Shown here one piece after another: positions 775-43,918 of a DNA stretch of 43,918 nucleotides (its first letter is position 1; every line of letters begins with the position of its first letter). Under the pieces are notes generated by a model. The model saw only the letters and a program-made list of their open reading frames with translations. It made no database searches and had not been told where the DNA came from. The translations under genes and the position numbers were made by a program. Location of the stretch: positions 1-43,918 of the IMG/VR virus record IMGVR_UViG_3300005095_000069. One strand, given 5' to 3'. The stretch comes from a virus.

Positions 775-1167
775 ATGACACAAGTAGAAATAACAGGAAA
801 AGTATTAGATTTAGAATTTTTCTATAACCTATTAAAGAAATGGGATTTAAAAGAAGATTATATTATTACTCTAGCTTCACCTTATATTGCTCAAGATAGC
901 TTAGATATTAATGAAGCAATAAAAAATACTCTATTTTTGATTAGAATTATTATCAACAGAAAGGTAAATGAGTTTTTAAATTCTCTTGATTCAAATAAAT
1001 ATATTATATTAAGAGACTTTATCTATTCTCCATTTATATTTGTTAATTACCTTGATTCTTGTATAGATGATGATTTATTTCTTGATGAGGTAGTAACCAA
1101 AGATTCTATTGACGAGGAGAAATTACTTGAATATCTCATAGAGTATGAGATAATTAAGAGAAAATAA
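775..1167 (+). CDS. Hypothetical early protein (130 aa)
   Basis: I do not recognise this protein. It is the first gene of the rightward arm. It sits about 40 bases after a TATAAT box and has a good ribosome site (AAAGGA, then a short spacer to ATG). The protein is acidic, leucine/isoleucine/aspartate-rich and probably helical, with no cysteine pairs, signal peptide or membrane segment. Its first position suggests an early, perhaps host-takeover, role, but that is inference from order only. The end of the gene is partly duplicated just past the stop: 24 bases at 1125-1148 recur at 1172-1195, which suggests a local tandem duplication in or after the C-terminal codons. Confidence 0.8.
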   Translation: MTQVEITGKVLDLEFFYNLLKKWDLKEDYIITLASPYIAQDSLDINEAIKNTLFLIRIIINRKVNEFLNSLDSNKYIILRDFIYSPFIFVNYLDSCIDDDLFLDEVVTKDSIDEEKLLEYLIEYEIIKRK

Positions 1168-1387: not shown

Positions 1388-3709
1388 ATGATAAAAATAG
1401 CAGTAACTAAACTAACTAACACTCCAAAGCATAAGAGAGTATTAAAAGAGCACTTTAAGCCTAATTGGCAAGAGCCTGATAAACTAATTCCTTTTGATAG
1501 AGACTCTTTACAATCAGGAGGTTATATTGGTATACCAAAGAAGTCATCTCCTCCACTTCTTGTTATTGATTTTGATTTACCGAATATGGATAATGAAACA
1601 AAACAAGAAGCTAGCTTACTAATTAATACTTTACTAGAAACAAATCTTTATGTTAAAACCACAAAAGGGTATCATTTTTATTTTCTCCTTCCAAAAGACC
1701 CACATTCGCTTTATCATAGAAATTCTCTAAATATTAGAGAAGGAGTAGACATTCCTACAGGAGTATTTCTTCCTCTGTCAGATACTACAAAGACTCTACA
1801 TAATGAGAATAAACCTATAGTAGAGCCTCCAGAAGAGTTAACTAATTTTTTGTTTAAATATAAGGATAAAGATAAAGATAAAGATAAAGATAAATATAAA
1901 CCTAATCATACGTTAGAACAGTATTATATAAACTATGGATATATAAAACCTTTTAAAGATGAGTTAGAGACTTCTCAAAGAGATTCTAATTCAGCTCTAA
2001 ATGACCCTTATTTGCTAAGATTGTTTGAAGAAATTCTCTATTCTTATAATGCAGGAATTAACCCTAATTCATCTTTTGCTAGACACTTAAAAGAGCAAGA
2101 TATAAGTTTTAATATTATTAAATCAGGAGAGAAAAATCAACAGCTTAATAGACTTGCATTCTTACTTTTAAAAGACCCGTCAGTAGATGAGCAAACATTT
2201 AAACTACTGACAACTCTTTATAATATTTATCTTGATAGGGAAGAACGGGACAAAGAGGAACATATAGCTATAATAAATTCTCTTCTAAACACTCAAGAGT
2301 TTAATTTTGATTTAAACACACAAAAAACTCTTACTAAGTCTATAACAGTTACTCACTCTATAACATCTATAAAGTTTCATATACTTGCTACACCAGAGAG
2401 TAAATTTTATTTGCTTCCTTATTTACCCCATGCTAATCCAGAACAAACTATATTTACAAAACAGGCTATGCAACAACTTTTGATTAGAGATTTTAATATA
2501 CCTAAACAGAAAGCTAAATCTCTCTTAGAAAGAGCTCCTATAGTCTCCCTTATAAATGACCCTCTAACAGGGTATGGATTAATTCCTAAACATCTCTCAT
2601 TATATTCAGCAACAAATAAGTTTAATATTGCTATACAAACTGACTCAATGAGAGCATTTAAGGATAAATCATCATATAGCAATAGAATAGTAAAAGGATA
2701 CCTTACTCTATTAGATAATCTTACTAATTCTGATAAGTTTTTACAGGATTATATACTTTCTTATTTTAAGACACGATATCAAAGTCCTAAGCTTAGGCCT
2801 ATAATTTTTTGTTTTTGGGGAATAGGAGGTTCAGGAAAAGATACTCTTATAAACCTGTTATCGTCTCCTTTTGGAGAGCCAACAACTCTAACAGAGAATA
2901 TAGCTTTAGATAAACATTCTTCTTGGCAGATAGAGCCTAATGTACATATATCAGAGATAGCAGACTGGACAAAACAAGCACAATCTCAATTTAAGGCTCA
3001 ACTAAAGACTATTACAGGTTCTCAAGGGACTGTAACAATTCGCCCTATGCACAAGACAACAGTAAATATAAAGTCCTATGTACAGATATTTATATCCATG
3101 AACACACCTACGGCAATACATTCTACACCTAATGAGCTAAGAAGGTATGTTATATGCCGCTCTAATACGACACTATTAAAAGCTCTTGATAACTATAATT
3201 CTTCTCTTGATATAGATGAGCAAGTAACTATAGAGGAGTTAACAGACCCAAAAAATTACCACCATTTCCACGCGTGGCTTTCAACTTATACTCCTAAATA
3301 TGAACATAATTTTTATTCAGCAGAAGCAACACAAAAGTCTAGAGTATTTAGAGATTATCTTGACCTTACAACTACTAATAAAGATAAAATTGTCCATGCT
3401 CTTAATGCAGAGCCTACGACTAATTTTATACGACTCTCCACATTTGAGTATATACTAAAAGAGGTGCACGATATCTCACTAGAGACTCTATTAGAGGAGA
3501 ATGCTTCTCAAATAAAAGTTCAGCCATATGAGATACTTATTGCAAGACCTCTAGCAAACAAGCTCTTATATAAAGAGAATGCTATAATATATCTATCAGA
3601 AGATAAGTTACCTTTTAATGGTAACTATGCTCCTTATATTACTATTCAAGGGTCTATACAAAAGAAAGTAAAACCCCTTGATAAGTATGAAGATATAAAT
3701 ATAGAATAA
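1388..3709 (+). CDS. Prim-Pol primase fused to SF3-type helicase
   Basis: This is a 773-residue replication initiator that primes and unwinds phage DNA. The N-terminal part looks like an archaeo-eukaryotic Prim-Pol domain: LLVIDFD (D61, D63), then KGYHFYF with H96, then GVDIPTG (D121). This acid-acid/His/acid order is typical of the family. A charged linker of alternating Lys and Asp (about residues 159-169) follows, encoded by a GATAAA hexamer run. The C-terminal half has a Walker A motif GIGGSGKDT (near 477), a Walker B-like HISEIADW (near 519) and an SMN sensor (near 570), as in SF3/P4-D5 helicases. It has its own gap upstream with a hairpin promoter. The family roles are established; the assignment by motif is strong, though activity is not shown. 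Confidence 0.88.
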   Translation: MIKIAVTKLTNTPKHKRVLKEHFKPNWQEPDKLIPFDRDSLQSGGYIGIPKKSSPPLLVIDFDLPNMDNETKQEASLLINTLLETNLYVKTTKGYHFYFLLPKDPHSLYHRNSLNIREGVDIPTGVFLPLSDTTKTLHNENKPIVEPPEELTNFLFKYKDKDKDKDKDKYKPNHTLEQYYINYGYIKPFKDELETSQRDSNSALNDPYLLRLFEEILYSYNAGINPNSSFARHLKEQDISFNIIKSGEKNQQLNRLAFLLLKDPSVDEQTFKLLTTLYNIYLDREERDKEEHIAIINSLLNTQEFNFDLNTQKTLTKSITVTHSITSIKFHILATPESKFYLLPYLPHANPEQTIFTKQAMQQLLIRDFNIPKQKAKSLLERAPIVSLINDPLTGYGLIPKHLSLYSATNKFNIAIQTDSMRAFKDKSSYSNRIVKGYLTLLDNLTNSDKFLQDYILSYFKTRYQSPKLRPIIFCFWGIGGSGKDTLINLLSSPFGEPTTLTENIALDKHSSWQIEPNVHISEIADWTKQAQSQFKAQLKTITGSQGTVTIRPMHKTTVNIKSYVQIFISMNTPTAIHSTPNELRRYVICRSNTTLLKALDNYNSSLDIDEQVTIEELTDPKNYHHFHAWLSTYTPKYEHNFYSAEATQKSRVFRDYLDLTTTNKDKIVHALNAEPTTNFIRLSTFEYILKEVHDISLETLLEENASQIKVQPYEILIARPLANKLLYKENAIIYLSEDKLPFNGNYAPYITIQGSIQKKVKPLDKYEDINIE
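1862..1896 (+). repeat. In-frame GATAAA hexamer microsatellite
   Basis: About five tandem six-base units encode alternating Lys-Asp between the primase and helicase domains. Because the unit is six bases, slippage changes only linker length and never the frame. Confidence 0.85.
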
Positions 3710-3790: not shown

Positions 3791-4237
3791 ATGACTAAAG
3801 CAAAAGTTATAGAGTTAATAATTGCTAAGTTACCAAAAGAGTTAAAAAATAATAAGACTCTGATGACTATATTAGAAGAGATAAAAAATAAAAGAAATAG
3901 AAAGTCTAAAATAGACTTTATAAAAAATGATAAAGGAGAGGTATCTTACATTAAAGATACATTATCAAACCTTTGGTTTCCTGTAGATAAGTTCCCAAAA
4001 ACAAATACACCTTTTGGTTTCAGACCACAACATAAAGAGTTAGTAAAACATCGTAATATTTTTTATTCTGGTATAGATAATAAAATAAAAAATATTCAAG
4101 AGAAAGCTATTAATGGAGATATTTCTATTGATGAGGCTAGACGTCAAATAAACACTCTTAAAAATAAAAAATGGGACGTTAGAGTAGCTATACAAGAGCT
4201 TAATTTAAAAGGGTCAAAAGAGCCTCCTAAGGATTAA
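3791..4237 (+). CDS. Hypothetical protein (148 aa)
   Basis: I do not recognise this protein. It is basic, about 148 residues, with a lysine/asparagine-rich N-terminal half, a central aromatic-proline patch (around LWFPVDKFPK) and a charged helical C-terminal half. The charge suggests nucleic-acid binding, but there is no clear motif. It has a promoter of its own and a clear AAAGGAAAG ribosome site. It lies between the primase and the single-strand-binding protein, so a replication role is likely by context only. The stop codon lies inside a small hairpin (CCTAAGG/CCTTAGG, 4226-4245). Confidence 0.78.
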   Translation: MTKAKVIELIIAKLPKELKNNKTLMTILEEIKNKRNRKSKIDFIKNDKGEVSYIKDTLSNLWFPVDKFPKTNTPFGFRPQHKELVKHRNIFYSGIDNKIKNIQEKAINGDISIDEARRQINTLKNKKWDVRVAIQELNLKGSKEPPKD

Positions 4238-9584: not shown

Positions 9585-9830
9585 ATGGAATCTATGACTA
9601 TTCAAGAATTTGTTAATTTGTATAGAAGTCAATATAGTAATTTAACTGAATTTGCAAGAGACTTAGGCATTACCCAAAGTACAATATCTAAGTATAAAAA
9701 TGGACAATTACAGCCTAATAAAAAAACTGCTTATAGAATTTTTAATCAATTTGGAATTATTATCAAACCTTTTTCTGAAGAGGGTTTAATTGATTATGGT
9801 TTTAATATACTTAAGAATAAAGGAAGATAA
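9585..9830 (+). CDS. XRE-type helix-turn-helix regulator (81 aa)
   Basis: This small DNA-binding protein has a clear helix-turn-helix: LTEFARDLGITQSTISKYK (about residues 20-38), followed by a helix ending in FGI. This is the Cro/XRE pattern of helix 2, turn and recognition helix. It could repress or time early phage promoters, for example those with ATTCT/AGAAT boxes, but the target is inference. The start at 9585 is supported by AAAGGA six bases upstream; another ATG lies three codons in. It is coupled to both neighbours: it follows the previous stop directly, and its own stop overlaps the next ATG. No lysogeny genes are present. Confidence 0.8.
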   Translation: MESMTIQEFVNLYRSQYSNLTEFARDLGITQSTISKYKNGQLQPNKKTAYRIFNQFGIIIKPFSEEGLIDYGFNILKNKGR

Positions 9831-12523: not shown

Positions 12524-12994
12524 ATGACAGTTAATTGTAATATGTGTAAGGGTATGTGTTGCTTTAATCCTCCAGCTTTACACTCAAAAGAAGAGATTGA
12601 TTTTGCTTTAGAAAAAGGTTGTACTTTATTATGTATTAAAACTAATAAAGGATATAACATATCTATAAAAGCTAAAGAAGAGCAGTGTCCTTTTCTTTAC
12701 AACGGAAATTGTTCTATCTATAAAGATAGATTTTTAGCTTGTAAAGAATTTAATTGTAAAGCTTTAGATAAGAATATAGATGAGGTTGATGTAAATGATT
12801 TTATAACTCTTGATTCAACTAACCAAAGTATGTCTATAACTTATTTTACAGAAGAGTTTATAAATAATATAAAACAATCATATAAAGATAGAATAGAGAT
12901 ATATGATAGTGTTTTTAAAGCTATTGATAATTTTACTATATCTACATTCAAACTAGCATTAGGAATAAAAAATACAAGGGAGTTATACAAATGA
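12524..12994 (+). CDS. YkgJ-type CxxCxxxCC cluster protein (156 aa)
   Basis: This protein has the cysteine pattern of the zinc/iron-chelating YkgJ family. NCNMCKGMCC gives C5, C8, C12 and C13. Later come a CPFL segment, CSIYKDRFLAC and FNC, matching the family's CPFL..C.IY..RP..C..F.C pattern with RF in place of RP. The family is thought to bind a metal cluster; in phages the function is unknown. The second half (after about residue 90) is acidic and unlike the family core. A clear AAAGGA ribosome site precedes it, and its end overlaps the next start (ATGA). Confidence 0.78.
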   Translation: MTVNCNMCKGMCCFNPPALHSKEEIDFALEKGCTLLCIKTNKGYNISIKAKEEQCPFLYNGNCSIYKDRFLACKEFNCKALDKNIDEVDVNDFITLDSTNQSMSITYFTEEFINNIKQSYKDRIEIYDSVFKAIDNFTISTFKLALGIKNTRELYK

Positions 12995-22671: not shown

Positions 22672-23040
22672 TTAAATCCTTTCTCCTAACTTATTAAGTA
22701 ATTTTTTACCTGCTAATGTGGCTGCATTACTTAACCATGTTTTATAACTTTTAGCTATAATCTCCTCAACTTCAGTTACAAATTGTTTAACATACTTTCT
22801 CTTTTCAGTAAGCACAAAAATATCAGCAAAATAAAAAACATCTTTTGTTAATCCATAACCAATAATATAACCATATATTGTATCAGAGTCATCTACAAGT
22901 TTAAAAGCTGATACTGATTTTCTTTGTAGCAAAAAGAGTAACTCTTGAGCTACTGCAGTAGGGTGTTCTGTATAATGATTCTTAAATGTTAAATCAAATA
23001 AAGTTGGTATATCTTCAACTTTTAAAATTTTAGTCTTCAT
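22672..23040 (-). CDS. Possible GNAT-fold small virion protein (122 aa)
   Basis: The central part has the strand order of a GNAT fold: AFKLVDDSDTIYGYIIGYGL, then YFADIFVLTEKR, then helical LSNAATLAGKKLLNKLGERI. No clear Q/RxxGxG/A acetyl-CoA loop is visible, so it is likely not an active acetyltransferase. T7 gp13, which also stands beside gp14, is annotated in a similar way; the shared position is suggestive. It is followed directly by the gp14-like gene and overlaps the start region of the next-upstream small gene. The call is tentative. Confidence 0.5.
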   Translation of the reverse strand: MKTKILKVEDIPTLFDLTFKNHYTEHPTAVAQELLFLLQRKSVSAFKLVDDSDTIYGYIIGYGLTKDVFYFADIFVLTEKRKYVKQFVTEVEEIIAKSYKTWLSNAATLAGKKLLNKLGERI

Positions 23041-23191
23041 TTTTTAATTCTTTCTTTAATAAATATATTTTTACATCTTGCTTTTCTAGTTTATCTTCTA
23101 AGTCTTTTATTTTACTAACAAGAGTTGATAGAACTCTTCTTAAATCCTCGTTAGTAAAATGTGGAGGTAAATTAAGAGAAAATGTACTCAT
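23030..23191 (-). CDS. Small coiled-coil protein (53 aa)
   Basis: This is a 53-residue helical protein, starting MSTFSLNLPPHF, then leucine/lysine heptads to the end. I chose the ATG at 23191 because AAGGTGA precedes it; a longer frame exists up to 23227. It overlaps the upstream nozzle gene and the downstream GNAT-like gene, which suggests coupled translation. Function unknown. Confidence 0.6.
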   Translation of the reverse strand: MSTFSLNLPPHFTNEDLRRVLSTLVSKIKDLEDKLEKQDVKIYLLKKELKNED

Positions 23192-25094
23192 AAACTTCAC
23201 CTTTTGATTTAATCTCAATTTGAACAACTCTATATTGTTTCTTATTTATTTTATATTTTATTATATCAAAATTATCTATATTATTCAATATAGAATTAGT
23301 AGTTTCTATATATGAAATAATATCATCAATAAATAATTGTACTCTAAGTTCACTATCTTTTTGAGCAGTTAAAATAAATTCTTTAGAGTATTTTGGTATA
23401 CTAATAAAAGTAGGAATTGAAAATTTAGGTGATAAATAAGTAAATTCTCTGTTTTCATTGCTTCCAAATACTTCTACTAATTCATTATAATCTTTTCTAA
23501 TTCCATGTAATTTTGATTTAACTACTTCTAAATAAGAATAAGTAGAATCAATATAATAAAACTTTATATCAAATCTAAAATCAATAATAAGAGTTTTATT
23601 ATTGATACCACTAATAAAAACTCTTTCATTCCATACACCAGCTACTATAGACTCATCTAAAGTTAAATAACCTAAATGGTTTTTAGTTAAATTCTCTACA
23701 ACACTTCCTGTTGTAGTTGAGATACCATCATAACTAGCCCAAATAAGGGTATTTTTATAGTAAGTTATAGAATCTCTGCTAACACAACCTACTTCATAAG
23801 ATAAAGGATAAACAAAAAAATTAGTTTCATCTTCTCCTGCTATAATCCAACTCTTATTTTTAGAGAAAATAACTAAACCACTTTGAATAACTCCTATTCC
23901 CTCTAAATCCTCTTCGAAGATAATAAAGTTTTCTTTAGGAAAATATTCAGGGTATCCTCTTTTTGAATAGTATACTTTATTTTCTACTATTGCTATATGT
24001 AATCCTTTATACATAACTGCATGAGTTACACTATCAGGAATAGAATAGTTATTATAACTATCTAAAATATGGTTTCCAGCTACTAATCTTGTTGTAGATG
24101 TATCAAGATAAGTAGGAGATGTAGTTGTATCAATAAGAGTAAAGTCATCTAATCCATCATCTGTTAACTTATAAATTCTAACACTCCAACCAGTCATAAC
24201 TCCATAAGTTAATTCATTATTACTAACTTTACCAAAGCTTACTTTATTAGAGGGAGGAGTTTCTAAATCAAATTCTTCATTATAATATGTAACTACATAA
24301 GTAGAAGAGGGTAGTTCAGATAAATAGGCATTATCTCTTTGAAGTTTTAAATTAGTATCTTCTGCTACATAAGGTAAATCAGGATATTCATCAGATAAAT
24401 ATTCTTTTGTATAAGATGTATTTTTACCTTTATAGATTAATTTTTCATTGATACAAGTTATAGACCCTCCACTTAAACCTCTTTGACAAGAACGTAAAAC
24501 AATATAAGTATCTGAATCTTCTAAATCAAGTTTTAAAGAGTAATTTATATCTCTTGAAGAGTCATAAATCTCTACTATATTAGAACTAGTTACTATATCT
24601 TTAAAATCAAAAATAGTTTTAATATCATCAGAATGAGTCGATACATCAGCAGAATTAAAGTGATGTTCTCCTCTAAATTCTATCCATGGAGTTCTAACAA
24701 TATTACCATCTACATCTTTAAACTCTATAGCAAAATCATAATGAACTTGTTTAGTAGAATCAACTGGTAATAATACAGGAGGAGTAGAATCATATTTTAG
24801 ATAAGTATTTTTATCCTTATAAATAGTACCATCTGTTAAATATAACTTTTTGTTAAATATATTAGCATATATATTATAATCAAAAGTTATATAATCATCA
24901 TCATAATATTTAAACTTTTTAGCATTAATATAACTAATTAAAGAGTCTTGTTTTAATGGGACTAATTTTCCTGTAGATACATCTACATTCTCTAAATAAA
25001 CAGCTGTATTAGGCTTTAACAAAAACGGAGATATATGTTGATTCATACCTCCGCTGAATTCTATAATTGGAATATTACTATCTTTATTAATCAT
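23172..25094 (-). CDS. Tail nozzle/stabilization protein (gp12/gp10-like)
   Basis: This 640-residue protein is predicted to be beta-rich, resembling the nozzle/tail tubular protein B (T7 gp12) or P22 gp10 stabilization family. The start has a pattern common in these proteins: IIEFSGGMNQHISPFLL, then AVYLENVDVSTGKLVPL. Repeats of tyrosine-strand motifs (for example GVIQSGLVIFSKNKSW and VGCVSRDSITYYKN) fit a beta-propeller. It lies beside the ejection and adaptor genes. The start has AGAGG upstream. The assignment to the gp12/gp10 class rests on pattern and order. Confidence 0.68.
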   Translation of the reverse strand: MINKDSNIPIIEFSGGMNQHISPFLLKPNTAVYLENVDVSTGKLVPLKQDSLISYINAKKFKYYDDDYITFDYNIYANIFNKKLYLTDGTIYKDKNTYLKYDSTPPVLLPVDSTKQVHYDFAIEFKDVDGNIVRTPWIEFRGEHHFNSADVSTHSDDIKTIFDFKDIVTSSNIVEIYDSSRDINYSLKLDLEDSDTYIVLRSCQRGLSGGSITCINEKLIYKGKNTSYTKEYLSDEYPDLPYVAEDTNLKLQRDNAYLSELPSSTYVVTYYNEEFDLETPPSNKVSFGKVSNNELTYGVMTGWSVRIYKLTDDGLDDFTLIDTTTSPTYLDTSTTRLVAGNHILDSYNNYSIPDSVTHAVMYKGLHIAIVENKVYYSKRGYPEYFPKENFIIFEEDLEGIGVIQSGLVIFSKNKSWIIAGEDETNFFVYPLSYEVGCVSRDSITYYKNTLIWASYDGISTTTGSVVENLTKNHLGYLTLDESIVAGVWNERVFISGINNKTLIIDFRFDIKFYYIDSTYSYLEVVKSKLHGIRKDYNELVEVFGSNENREFTYLSPKFSIPTFISIPKYSKEFILTAQKDSELRVQLFIDDIISYIETTNSILNNIDNFDIIKYKINKKQYRVVQIEIKSKGEVYEYIFS

Positions 25095-40322: not shown

Positions 40323-41990
40323 TTAGTGTAATTTAGTGAAATCTCTAGGCTTAATTTTTGTATCAAAAAATAGATATTGAGCAAGGTAACGAAGTGACGC
40401 CGCACGGTCTGAATTTATATCATGAACATCTGTATCAAGATAAACTTGTAACTGTTTATCATATCGTCGTCTATAATTTTGTATCCCTACAAGCAAATTT
40501 AAATTAGGATTACAAAACATTATATTTATAAAGTCTCTAGCTACTTGTATAGATGTAGAAAATTTAAGAAGTTCTGGAAGAGGGGATACTGGTAAGCCTT
40601 TATCCATCATAATCTCGGCAGCTGAACGTCCTGTTGTAAAGTCATGAGAAAATGCGTCATGGGGTAGTATAATAGCTCTATAGTTAGGAAAAAACTCTTT
40701 TTTAGTTAATGGACATCTTGCTTTATATATTACCTCTATAAAATGTTCCACTCCTAAAGTATCATTAGACTCATACTCCCATAAAATATGAGGTCTTAGT
40801 TCAGTTGAACCATCAGGTAGAGTTGTAGGCTTAACTTGAGCAAAATACATAACTGTATAGTCTTTAGCTCCTATATCAAAAGAAACATACACAGGATAAG
40901 CAGGGTCGTACGGTAGAGGTTGTAATCTATACCTTTCCCTCATCAAAAGAGCATATTGAGATTTAAAAAATGTACCATGAAGAGGTAAATTAAAAGCAGA
41001 ATCAGGAGAATATGGATACTCTTGATTCATATAATCTGATAGTTCATCTAACTTAGCTGCAGCCCAATTTTTTTGATATTGAGTGAGCTTGTACTGACCT
41101 TGTGTCATAATATTTTTAGGAAGTGGATTGAAATTATCAGCTTTATATAAATATGAAAGTATATTACCAAAATTATCAAGTTTAGGATATATCAAGTATT
41201 GTCTATTAATAAATATTCCATCTGCGTCTTTATAATTAAAAAACTCTTCTACAGTATCAAAATAGTCAAGAGCTTCTTGAGAGGGCTCATAATGATACTG
41301 TAAATTACAATCAGGGTCAATAACCCATGATAAAAATATAGGATAGAAATCAAGAGGTGTTAACTGTTGTTTTAATTTGAGTGTTGTGTTTTTTCTAGCT
41401 GTAGCAGTTTTCCACATCTCATAAAACATTCCTTGAGCTCCCTCTGCTGTAGATTCAATAGAAACAATATTATTAGTAGCTACTGCTTGTAATGCTCCTG
41501 TTTTTATCTCCTTAGCTTTTTCAGGATAAACTTTAGCTATCTTAGCAAGTTCTGATATATGAAATCGTTGTAGAGTATCACCTCTAAAGTTGCCAATACG
41601 AAGAGAAGACCCATTAGTAAAAGTAACACCCTCTTGAGCTGAAGCTGATTTTATATTAATATTAAGCAAAGTTTTTATATCAGGGTCTAGCCTCTCATAA
41701 GCAAACATAGCTTTATTATATAATTTTTTAGCTTCTACTTTACCATAGGACTGAATACCAGCTTGATAATTAGGAATCATTAAACAAGCGTCTAAAGCGT
41801 CAATAACTTTCTTAGTTGATATACCTTGTTGTCTTGATTTTAATGTAATCTCTCTAGGGTGCTTAACTGAATCTACAATCCTTTGAGCAAAATTAAGATT
41901 AAATAAATTAGTCTGCCCTTGTTTATCTGTAATATAATATAAATTATTTAACCTCCAAAAGCGATTAGATAATAATTGATTTATACTCAC
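40323..41990 (-). CDS. Terminase large subunit
   Basis: This 555-residue packaging motor has an N-terminal ATPase with a Walker A-like SRQQGIST (52-59), a Walker B-like RFHISELA (142-149) and a coupling STAEGAQGMFYEMW (from 180). The C-terminal nuclease shows VYVSFDIGAKDYT (D372, D377), then an ENCOUNTER-type hydrophobic WEYES segment. It cuts and packages concatemer DNA. It overlaps the start of the small-subunit gene by four bases. The missing classical GxxxxGK(T/S) is normal for this motor family. Confidence is high. Confidence 0.9.
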   Translation of the reverse strand: MSINQLLSNRFWRLNNLYYITDKQGQTNLFNLNFAQRIVDSVKHPREITLKSRQQGISTKKVIDALDACLMIPNYQAGIQSYGKVEAKKLYNKAMFAYERLDPDIKTLLNINIKSASAQEGVTFTNGSSLRIGNFRGDTLQRFHISELAKIAKVYPEKAKEIKTGALQAVATNNIVSIESTAEGAQGMFYEMWKTATARKNTTLKLKQQLTPLDFYPIFLSWVIDPDCNLQYHYEPSQEALDYFDTVEEFFNYKDADGIFINRQYLIYPKLDNFGNILSYLYKADNFNPLPKNIMTQGQYKLTQYQKNWAAAKLDELSDYMNQEYPYSPDSAFNLPLHGTFFKSQYALLMRERYRLQPLPYDPAYPVYVSFDIGAKDYTVMYFAQVKPTTLPDGSTELRPHILWEYESNDTLGVEHFIEVIYKARCPLTKKEFFPNYRAIILPHDAFSHDFTTGRSAAEIMMDKGLPVSPLPELLKFSTSIQVARDFINIMFCNPNLNLLVGIQNYRRRYDKQLQVYLDTDVHDINSDRAASLRYLAQYLFFDTKIKPRDFTKLH

Positions 41991-42262
41991 TCTGGTATAA
42001 CCTCTATATCAATAAAATTAGTTTTATCTAGAGAAGGTAAAGAGTTGTGATTTTTAATATCGTACTTTAATCTCAAAGACTGTAATGTATCTTCTAAAGA
42101 AGTAGCAGTCTTAGAGTCTAAATTAGCCTTCTCTATCTTTAAAGCTGTAGTAGTTAATAAGTCTACATCTTTTATATCAAGATAAGCTAAATTATCATCT
42201 TTAAATTGCTCCCTAATAAATGATAATGCTTGTTTTTTAATAAATTCAATATCTTTTTCCAT
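41987..42262 (-). CDS. Possible terminase small subunit (91 aa)
   Basis: This 91-residue, mostly helical protein stands directly upstream of the large subunit and overlaps it by four bases, the usual place of the small, DNA-recognising subunit. No clear helix-turn-helix is visible, and it is short for the family. No good ribosome site precedes the ATG at 42262, so initiation may be weak. It is the first gene of the leftward arm. Confidence 0.55.
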   Translation of the reverse strand: MEKDIEFIKKQALSFIREQFKDDNLAYLDIKDVDLLTTTALKIEKANLDSKTATSLEDTLQSLRLKYDIKNHNSLPSLDKTNFIDIEVIPE

Positions 42263-42348
42263 ATCAAAATAATAACAAAATTAAATTAAAGAGTCAACTT
42301 ATTTAAGAAGTGTTTAAGTTTCTAGTTCTTAAAAAAGCTAAATAACTC
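42263..42348 (-). other. Leader of the late arm
   Basis: This is an A/T-rich leader without a gene. It contains TTTAAGAAG-like text near 42303 but no purine-rich ribosome site just before the terminase small-subunit ATG. Confidence 0.5.
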
Positions 42349-42482
42349 TTAATTATTCTTTATCGTAATAAATAGTAACTTGAGTAAAATAGAAAAAAGT
42401 ACTTATAATAACTTAAAATATAAGAGTGTAAAAATAAAACATTAGAAATTTTTTATTGATTATTACGATAAAGAATAATTAA
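42349..42482. promoter_or_regulatory. 23-bp inverted repeat pair framing the late promoter
   Basis: The arms 42349-42371 and 42460-42482 are perfect 23-base reverse complements, containing the same TATTCTTTATCGTAAT core as 201-216/327-342. Arm centres are 111 bp apart. A short extension past the core (AAATAGTAA) is also shared with the left element. The likely late promoter lies between the arms. Confidence 0.75.
42402..42432 (-). promoter_or_regulatory. Candidate late promoter
   Basis: TTTACA (42432-42427) and TATAAG (42407-42402) lie on the - strand, 19 bases apart. TTTACAC aligns with TTGACAC of the 252-280 promoter, and the downstream sequence (TTACTATTTATTACGAT) is shared. It would drive terminase and virion genes. 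The wide spacer and the weak -10 lower the certainty. Confidence 0.5.
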
Positions 42483-42521
42483 ATATTTTGTTAAACTAAT
42501 TTAAAACTATCTAAGAGCTAC

Positions 42522-42624
42522 TTAAAAGTTATTTTTTAAATAAATCTTAATTTAAGATTAATTTAAGATTTAAGATTCATTTAAGATTTAGCTTTTTAAA
42601 AGTTATTTTTTAAATGAATCTTAA
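42522..42624. repeat. 29-bp direct repeat and TTTAAGATT cluster
   Basis: Bases 42522-42550 recur at 42596-42624 with one mismatch (28 of 29). Between them are several TTTAAGATT/AATCTTAAA motifs. This could be a set of protein-binding sites or an origin segment. Confidence 0.8.
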
Positions 42625-42658
42625 AAAATTAATTTAGTTTTTATAAGTTAAATTAGAG

Positions 42659-42823
42659 AATAATTAAAATCTGAAAGAGATATTATATAGTCTTAATTGG
42701 AATAATTAAAATCTGAAAGAGATATTATTTGGAATAATTGGAATAATTAAAATCTGAAAGAGATATTATATAGTCTTAATTGGAATAATTAAAATCTGAA
42801 AGAGATATTATATAGTCTTAATT
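42659..42823. repeat. 42-bp tandem repeat, three long copies and one truncated
   Basis: Copies begin at 42659 (42 bases), 42701 (32 bases, truncated), 42742 (42 bases) and 42784 (40 bases). Each long copy carries ATTATATAGTC, i.e. TATAAT on the - strand; the core is AATTAAAATCTGAAAGAGAT. A short extra AATAATTGG lies after the truncated copy. Possible roles are iterons of a replication origin or tandem weak leftward promoters. Confidence 0.85.
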
Positions 42824-42935
42824 TTACATTCACTAAGCCCCAAACCTTGACACTACCCCTTACATTTTTATGTAAATAATATTAGCTCTTCCTGTTCAAC
42901 TACTTAACAAAAATATATATATATATATATTAAAA
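42824..42935. other. Gene-free junction with local GC-rich patch and AT dinucleotide run
   Basis: The interval from 42829 to 42862 is locally richer in C (CTAAGCCCCAAACC). A TTGACA box lies at 42847-42852 on the + strand but no good -10 follows. An (AT)9 run lies at about 42913-42930. The first GCTCTTC outside the main array is near 42886. Confidence 0.5.
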
Positions 42936-43918
42936 GTTTTTCAGGTCCTTAACTTTTTATTTCAAACTTATTTCAAACTTCCTATCAAAAAGAGATTACT
43001 TCTAACTTACTTCTAACTTACTTCTAACTTATTTCAAACTTATTTCAAACTTCCTATCAAAAAGAGATTACTTCTAACTTACTTCCTATCAAAAAGAGAT
43101 TACTTCTAACTTACTTCAAACTTACTTCAAACTTCCTATCAAAAAGAGATTACTTCTAACTTACTTCAAACTTACTTCAAACTTCCTATCAAAAAGAGAT
43201 TACTTCTAACTTACTTCCTATCAAAAAGAGATTACTTCCTTAGCTCTTGGAGCTTTTTCCTTAACTCTTCTTTAGCTCTTCCTATCAAAAAGAGATTACT
43301 TCCTTAGCTCTTCTTTAGCTCTTCCTTAGCTCTTGGAGCTTTTTCCTTAACTCTTCTTTAGCTCTTCTTTAGCTCTTCCTTAGCTCTTCTTTAGCTCTTC
43401 CTATCAAAAAGAGATTACTTCCTTAGCTCTTCCCTTCCTTAGCTCTTCCTTAGCTCTTCTTTAGCTCTTCCTATCAAAAAGAGATTACTTCCTTAGCTCT
43501 TCCTATCAAAAAGAGATTACTTCTTTAGCTCTTCCTTAACTCTTGGAGCTTCTTCCTATCAAAAAGAGAGCTTCTTCCTGTTCAACTTCCTATCAAAAAG
43601 AGAGCTTCTTCCTTAACTCTTCCTATCAAAAAGAGATTACTTCCTTAGCTCTTCTTTAACTCTTCCTTAGCTCTTCTTTAGCTCTTCTTTAGCTCTTCTT
43701 TAGCTCTTCTTTAGCTCTTCTTTAGCTCTTCTTTAGCTCTTCCTTAGCTCTTCCTTAACTCTTCTTTAGCTCTTCCTTAACTCTTCTTTAGCTCTTCCTT
43801 AGCTCTTCTTTAGCTCTTCCTTAGCTCTTCCTTAACTCTTCTTTAGCTCTTCTTTAGCTCTTCCTTAGCTCTTCTTTAGCTCTTCCTATCAAAAAGAGAT
43901 TACTTCCTTAGCTCTTCC
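42936..43918. repeat. Main hierarchical tandem array
   Basis: About 980 bases are built from 11-base units: TTACTTCTAAC, TTATTTCAAAC and TTACTTCAAAC in the first 270 bases, then TTAGCTCTTCT, TTAGCTCTTCC and TTAACTCTTCC. About 14 longer 21-22 base units starting TATCAAAAAGAGA are interspersed. Variants include CTTGGAGCTTTTTCC and CTGTTCAAC. The + strand is strongly pyrimidine-rich. GCTCTTC appears dozens of times in one orientation only. A-tracts (AAAAA) recur at spacings near multiples of 10.5-11. CTCTT and AAGAG around TATCAAA can form short hairpins. All frames contain stops. The array continues at 1-180. Confidence 0.95.
43829..43918. repeat. 90-bp exact direct terminal repeat (right copy)
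   Basis: This copy is identical to bases 1-90. It is the basis for treating the window as a closed or terminally redundant genome. Confidence 0.85.

Follow-up and report, generated by a model that had tools for sequence, protein, structure and literature searches.

The window analyzed here is the whole 43,918-bp virus record IMGVR_UViG_3300005095_000069 of IMG/VR (positions 1–43,918). Its leftward late genes include those for the large terminase, the major head protein, and the portal, and its rightward early genes encode a primase-helicase, a gp2.5-like SSB, a family A DNA polymerase, an exonuclease, and an SF2 helicase. The large terminase subunit is encoded at 40323–41990 on the minus strand, and its identification rests best on tblastn. 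The adjacent gene at 41987–42262 (minus strand) encodes a 91-aa candidate small terminase, assigned from its position and from a weak similarity to the C-terminal half of the small terminase of relatives. This candidate is without the N-terminal part kept in relatives (consensus LLLSYQIEYETTDI..LC.KY), and the consensus was also absent in the three frames read upstream of the gene. In the early region, the product of 9585–9830 showed an HTH domain match, and that of 12524–12994 (plus strand) matched a CxxCxxCC metal-chelating domain below the Pfam cut-off.

Sequence comparison placed the phage among the podoviruses, as a distant relative of Kafunavirus. In large terminase and portal, its nearest matches were 31–37% identical; these were Kafunavirus KF-1 and its Edwardsiella relatives, Dickeya phage Amaethon, Vibrio phage VPMS1, Pseudoalteromonas phage PH1, and two Manatee Spring contigs. 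A single-sequence search with the large terminase gave no close relatives, and the structural region had no megablast match in phage records. A profile search yielded 80 viral contigs, the nearest of which showed 44–49% terminase identity. Among the portal relatives from collections of host genomes are two Sulfurovum contigs, which makes a host from the Campylobacterota possible. Contig L190, from the family of a Sulfurovum genome with a related portal, does not carry the terminase–primase gap and was therefore outside the gap comparison described below.

Composition and extent of the tandem array

A tandem array lies between the divergent early and late arms, as the preliminary description had placed it. 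It occupies 42957–43828 joined to 1–165 and measures 1037 bp (~1.04 kb) when merged. The earlier limits and length were too wide; the repeats begin at 42957 rather than 42936 and stop near 165 rather than 180, and a length of over 1.1 kb had been reached because bases 1–90, which duplicate 43829–43918, were counted twice.

A unit census assigned 93% of the 1037 bp to repeat units. These were CYTTARCTCTT (44 copies), CTAACTTACTT-type 11-mers (11 copies), CAAACTT (4 copies), the 21-mer CCTATCAAAAAGAGATTACTT (12 copies), and a 19-bp variant (4 copies). The 11-base units stood as described, and the long unit, given before as 21–22 bases, was a 21-bp unit accompanied by the 19-bp variant. The claim of at least two mixed unit families also held, in that two 11-mer families, arranged in zones, are interleaved with one 21-mer. 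Zone A (42957–43217, plus strand) contains CTAACTTACTT and CAAACTTACTT 11-mers mixed with the 21-mers. Zone B (about 43217–43918, or from 43238 by the unit parse, plus strand) contains CYTTARCTCTT 11-mers, 21-mers, and 19-bp variants, with a pure 11-mer block at 43643–43885 (plus strand), and continues across the record ends to 165. The 21-mer is common to both zones and the 11-mers differ. Between copies, the 11-mers vary at two positions; all 12 full copies of the 21-mer are letter-perfect within the two different 11-mer surroundings.

Tandem Repeats Finder reported overlapping arrays at 42957–43918 and 4–135, with periods of 11, 22, 32, 43, 50, and 70; distances of 32 and 50 bp are frequent from one 21-mer to the next. 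The top score was 401 (43640–43885, period 11 × 22.4), compared with a best score of at most 77 in 50 Markov shuffles of the gap. Tandem repeats covered 50% of the 2340-bp gap versus 0.8% of the remaining genome, and the 11-bp autocorrelation was 0.574 in the array versus at most 0.406 in 200 shuffles. Repeat search and autocorrelation were both far above shuffles, indicating that the tandem 11-mer array is real, and the array is restricted to this one gap. Consistent with the high proportion of repeat units, no unique spacers of the CRISPR type were found between the repeats. The SapI recognition sequence GCTCTTC occurs 34 times in the array (42957–43918 plus 1–165) and five times elsewhere on the same strand. 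Moreover, AGCTCTTGGAGCT followed by TTTTTCC, which has the look of a weak terminator, is present in two copies within the array (43242–43340).

Bases 1–90 are identical to 43829–43918, and a terminal repeat of 90 bp inside the array would fit a physical genome end there, yet a third copy of the 90-mer is also located in the array, at 43344–43433. Because of this recurrence, circle closure and array length are not secure, and the true array may be longer or shorter than in the record. The contigs of two relatives (L025 and L057) likewise start inside arrays.

The array is bordered by AT-rich DNA, with 18.3% GC at 42263–42956 and 19% GC at 181–774 versus 29.1% for the genome. The left flank ranks with the least stable parts of the genome; stretches starting at 42351–42521 belong to this group, as do two stretches elsewhere. 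A separate 42-bp repeat in four copies is situated at 42658–42823. The right flank separates the array from the first early gene (775–1167, plus strand), whose 130-aa product showed no family match and no detectable DNA-binding domain; its predicted structure was unusable (pLDDT 45). Outside the array, the GC skew stays close to zero from about 40 kb through to 4 kb, with no sharp switch at the array. Over the first early genes, which run rightward from 775, it is near zero or negative, and it becomes positive only from ~4 kb.

The best sigma-70-like promoter match of the region, TTGACA-17-TAAAAT at 252–280 on the minus strand, is a consensus match only and points leftward through the array. 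This match, the location between divergent operons, and the HTH protein gene at 9585–9830 would be compatible with transcription control, in which the array serves as operators for an early HTH regulator that balances the divergent promoters, or as a decoy for a host protein. We consider this rather improbable, since promoter scan matches are weak evidence, operator-like palindromes were absent at the promoter, and the number of units far exceeds that of usual operators.

The physical properties suggested in the preliminary description were also analyzed. In a wedge model, the array was the most curved DNA of the genome (9.7 versus an average of 4.4 degrees per turn). However, permuted 11-bp units, tiled in the same manner, reached the observed curvature in 10–49% of trials. 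Curvature as a tuned property was rejected by this control, and the curvature of the array is taken as a by-product of its 11-bp period, not as a designed feature. The A5 tracts, said to recur near helical phase, proved to be weakly phased (coherence of 0.17 at 10.5 bp and 0.47 at 11 bp). Pyrimidines make up 68% of the plus strand of the array, and just two runs of them reach 12 or more, so that calling it polypyrimidine was an overstatement; triplex formation was rejected on the same ground. Furthermore, RNA folding of either strand and single-stranded DNA folding were no better than shuffles, and a triplex-prone or otherwise structure-forming element was thus not supported.

In Rfam, the only hits were to CsrB on the minus strand and fell below threshold (17.4 bits and E 0.03, against a gathering score of 71). 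They would suit a noncoding RNA sponge, that is, a minus-strand transcript with many GGA motifs that titrates host CsrA. This appears very improbable, because the RNA folds no better than shuffles, GGA is missing from half of the 11-mers and from most zone A units, and the units of relatives are mostly without GGA.

Arrays in the relatives of the phage

Two gene orders were found among the relatives, which differ by a block inversion of the terminase gene pair. This inversion separates L009–L014 and L060–L092 from L015–L057. In the first order, which is that of the window, the late operon begins with the terminase pair, and the early operon is divergent to it. All 17 loci of this order that extend to the primase region show an enrichment of tandem repeats in the gap between small terminase and primase; the repeats make up 4–26% of the gap, compared with 0–7% of the rest of the locus and an average of at most about 0.6% in shuffles. 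The concern, raised in the preliminary description, that relatives might have no repeats at this site was thus settled, as they do have repeats there, although of unrelated sequence.

The relatives with the order of the window use two array sites. At the site 5′ of the small terminase, units are mostly 36–94 bp. The other site, 5′ of the primase operon, carries an array in most of these relatives, and its units are mostly 9 or 17–22 bp, as in L021 (21 bp × 4.8), L030 (22 bp × 7.3), L032 (21 bp × 6.2), L029 (19 bp × 7.4), and L042 (9 bp × 10.7). The window array resembles the primase-side arrays in unit length, and the 42-bp repeat of the window corresponds to the small-terminase-side site by position, not by sequence. 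Between the array and the primase, several relatives have a gene for a small protein that contains an HTH-like segment. The window genes at 775–1167 and 3791–4237 showed no homology to the genes flanking the arrays of relatives.

Directly 5′ of the small terminase, and about 500–900 bp 5′ of the large terminase, L024, L031, L035–L039, L043, L056, and L057 carry about 2–8 copies of a ~47-bp repeat (core like CCAATTTT-AAA-TCCATCACAATCCAACT). A recognizable core is common to at least eight phages. This repeat is a candidate packaging or terminase-binding site; no homology of the 42-bp repeat of the window to it was found.

Of the 25 loci with the inverted terminase pair, 18 have arrays on the side of the early operon, 3′ of the large terminase, and so do all six complete genomes. 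Arrays 5′ of the small terminase were observed in 3 of 25 loci and in none of the six genomes, a contrast (18/25 versus 3/25) that partly reflects where noncoding DNA sits. What all arrays have in common is nevertheless a position upstream of the early operon rather than at the 5′ end of the terminase genes. The arrays track the replication operon and not the packaging genes, because the terminase inversion leaves them on the early side. For the window, whose array also abuts the late arm, the early-side assignment is made by analogy with the relatives. In the cultured Pseudoalteromonas phage PH1 (L014), the array at 22911–23654 has a 16/32-bp period and a GACGTC palindrome, which occurs 12 times in the 744-bp gap versus once in the other 41.9 kb. 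The arrays of three uncultured viral contigs (L066, L069, and L076), situated 3′ of the large terminase, show the same period and palindrome.

These positions bear on a packaging element, namely a region for terminase recognition or a genome end, comparable in action to the T7 short repeats beside the terminal repeat or to a pac region, which had been among the earlier suggestions. The array is 1 kb from the terminase genes, the 90-bp terminal repeat of the record is inside it, and in relatives a conserved repeat adjoins the small terminase on its 5′ side, all of which would agree with packaging. However, arrays remain with the early operon when the terminase genes of relatives invert, which makes this role less likely. 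In addition, the terminal repeat may be an assembly effect because it is present three times within the array, and the repeat nearest to the terminase is the separate block at 42658–42823. We therefore regard a packaging function of the array as unlikely.

The sequences of the arrays turn over rapidly. Neither the 21-mer core nor tandem CYTTARCTCTT had an exact match among 2.9 million viral contigs, and 9-mers common to the window array and the gaps of relatives were at chance level versus shuffles. The repeat units of relatives are unrelated in sequence and range from 6 to 94 bp in length. Even between two relatives with ~90% identical terminase regions, gap identity is roughly 0.45–0.8, with additional length changes. 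On these comparisons, the array sequence is private to the window, and the array position is common to its relatives.

A neutral satellite could show a similar pattern, if replication slippage or recombination creates and expands functionless repeats in a large noncoding gap that tolerates them. The unrelated units, their wide range of lengths, the faster divergence of the gap than of the terminase, and the occurrence of arrays wherever a large noncoding gap is present are all as such a satellite would predict. On the other hand, the 21-mer is perfect in 12 copies across two different surroundings, and 1 kb of useless DNA is seldom kept in compact phage genomes. Conservation of the ~47-bp repeat in at least eight relatives and of the GACGTC motif in PH1 and three contigs further indicates that at least part of the arrays of this family is constrained. 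A neutral origin is thus possible but doubtful. Since relatives carry unrelated repeats at the same place, we suggest that the array is a quickly evolving docking site for the start of DNA copying, not a one-off oddity.

The primase-helicase gene and a possible initiation region

The gene at 1388–3709 (plus strand) starts 1.2 kb to the right of the array, with one small gene in between, and encodes a protein of 773 aa. This protein matches DUF5906 and TIGR01613, the latter below the curated cut-off, and a profile search matched it to the NrS-1 phage primase (E 5e-19). The Prim-Pol domain matches in the primases of relatives, slightly below cut-off. The active-site residues D61, D63, D121, and K484 are invariant and H96 is almost so. 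The best fold match of the predicted structure was NrS-1, in a model with a mean pLDDT of 60 that is best in the helicase part and below 50 for residues 675–773. Profile, residues, and predicted fold together indicate that the gene encodes an NrS-1-type PrimPol joined to an SF3 helicase, which we propose as the initiator. P4 alpha has an origin-binding winged helix in its C-terminal region, and the corresponding residues of the window primase are 675–773, within the low-pLDDT part of the model.

We estimate at about one half the probability that the array is a rapidly turning-over, iteron-like replication-initiation array. It would be a cis-acting part of the replication-initiation region and provide a long set of putative iteron-like binding sites. 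The invariant 21-bp unit, equal to two helical turns, is the probable core site, and the 11-bp units, equal to one turn, may be spacers or weaker sites. We infer that an early phage protein, which may be the PrimPol/SF3 helicase or else a small early partner that binds DNA, would load on the repeats, that the flanking DNA of 18–19% GC would melt, and that the ring helicase would then be installed in the divergent region, where replication would start.

Several features expected of iteron-type origins are present, namely direct repeats of about 17–22 bp (the 21-mer in 12 copies and the 19-bp variant in four), a nearby gene for a possible initiator, and adjacent AT-rich DNA. Counting against an origin, the small gene beside the array encodes no recognizable DNA-binding domain, the NrS-1 recognition sequence TTTGGTTA is missing from the array, GC skew has no clean switch there, about 70 units exceed what a known origin needs, and the 11-mers are variable at two positions. 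The preliminary proposal of a putative protein-binding array for replication initiation gained from the position 5′ of the replication operon throughout the family and from the PrimPol/SF3 neighbor. Among the functions put forward earlier, replication initiation is the best reading, packaging is less likely, and curvature and triplex formation are unsupported.

A broader and rather speculative proposal, which we hold to be improbable, is that the Kafunavirus lineage has satellite-like initiation arrays of fixed position, whose sequence is replaced wholesale together with the PrimPol/SF3 initiators. Such replacement would perhaps block cross-firing, in that co-infecting phages or satellites could not fire the origins of each other; the hosts span Edwardsiella to Pseudoalteromonas. 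If the replication-initiation reading is right, the initiation region of a whole phage lineage has been located from sequence alone, and its role is testable in the cultured phages PH1, Edwardsiella phage KF-1, Dickeya phage Amaethon, and Vibrio phage VPMS1. It would also provide a phage case of position-conserved, sequence-replaced arrays, comparable to centromere satellites, and would test for co-evolution between PrimPol/SF3 initiators and their sites.

Comparison with known repeat systems

The statement that no named phage element has such an architecture was too strong, because the origins of lambda, P4, PICIs, and PLE and the T7 short repeats are similar in kind. Our literature search for an equivalent phage array found only analogues of the lambda, P4, PICI, and PLE type. 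The kind of element is therefore known, and its extent and the family pattern of conserved position with replaced sequence were not found described in the literature searched. The T7 short repeats have a 7-bp unit and a dozen copies, and they are associated with a terminal repeat that is proven. They resemble the window array as a short direct-repeat array of a podovirus near a possible genome end, which in the window is not secure. The R1 parC-type centromere consists of 11-bp direct repeats, as are also present in the window array; no partition genes were found among roughly 20 window proteins scanned, including those of array-adjacent genes.

In the lambda ori, direct repeats (iterons) are bound by the initiator (PMC11447400). 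The likeness to the window is the direct repeats, whereas lambda has four iterons, located inside a replication gene. The PLE satellite of Vibrio has several repeat types in a noncoding region, of which one is an initiator-bound iteron, and its units converge on a poly-A tract (PMC7145576). Mixed repeat types are likewise found in one noncoding region of the window, where the 21-mer also has an A5 tract. In contrast, the PLE initiator is RepA_N and not PrimPol/SF3, and its repeats are far fewer.

The NrS-1 polymerase, from a phage of Epsilonproteobacteria, recognizes TTTGGTTA, which has two copies in the NrS-1 genome, and begins DNA synthesis at a specific sequence, which its authors propose as a possible origin (PMC7102993, PMC8718748). 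The window primase-helicase is homologous to this PrimPol by sequence and fold, whereas the window phage additionally encodes a family A polymerase. Unlike the NrS-1 genome with its two copies, the window array has no TTTGGTTA, which occurs in the window only on the minus strand near 1094 and 12820. NrS-1 is thus a relative of the enzyme and no proof for the site.

In PICI and P4 elements, origin repeats occur together with a primase/helicase initiator, and those of PICIs lie beside an AT-rich region (PMC6092414, PMC4234260). The window resembles PICI pri-rep-ori and P4 alpha in having direct repeats and AT-rich DNA near a primase/helicase initiator gene. However, PICI and P4 origins have small iteron sets, whereas in the window about 70 units of two classes extend over 1 kb as putative sites.
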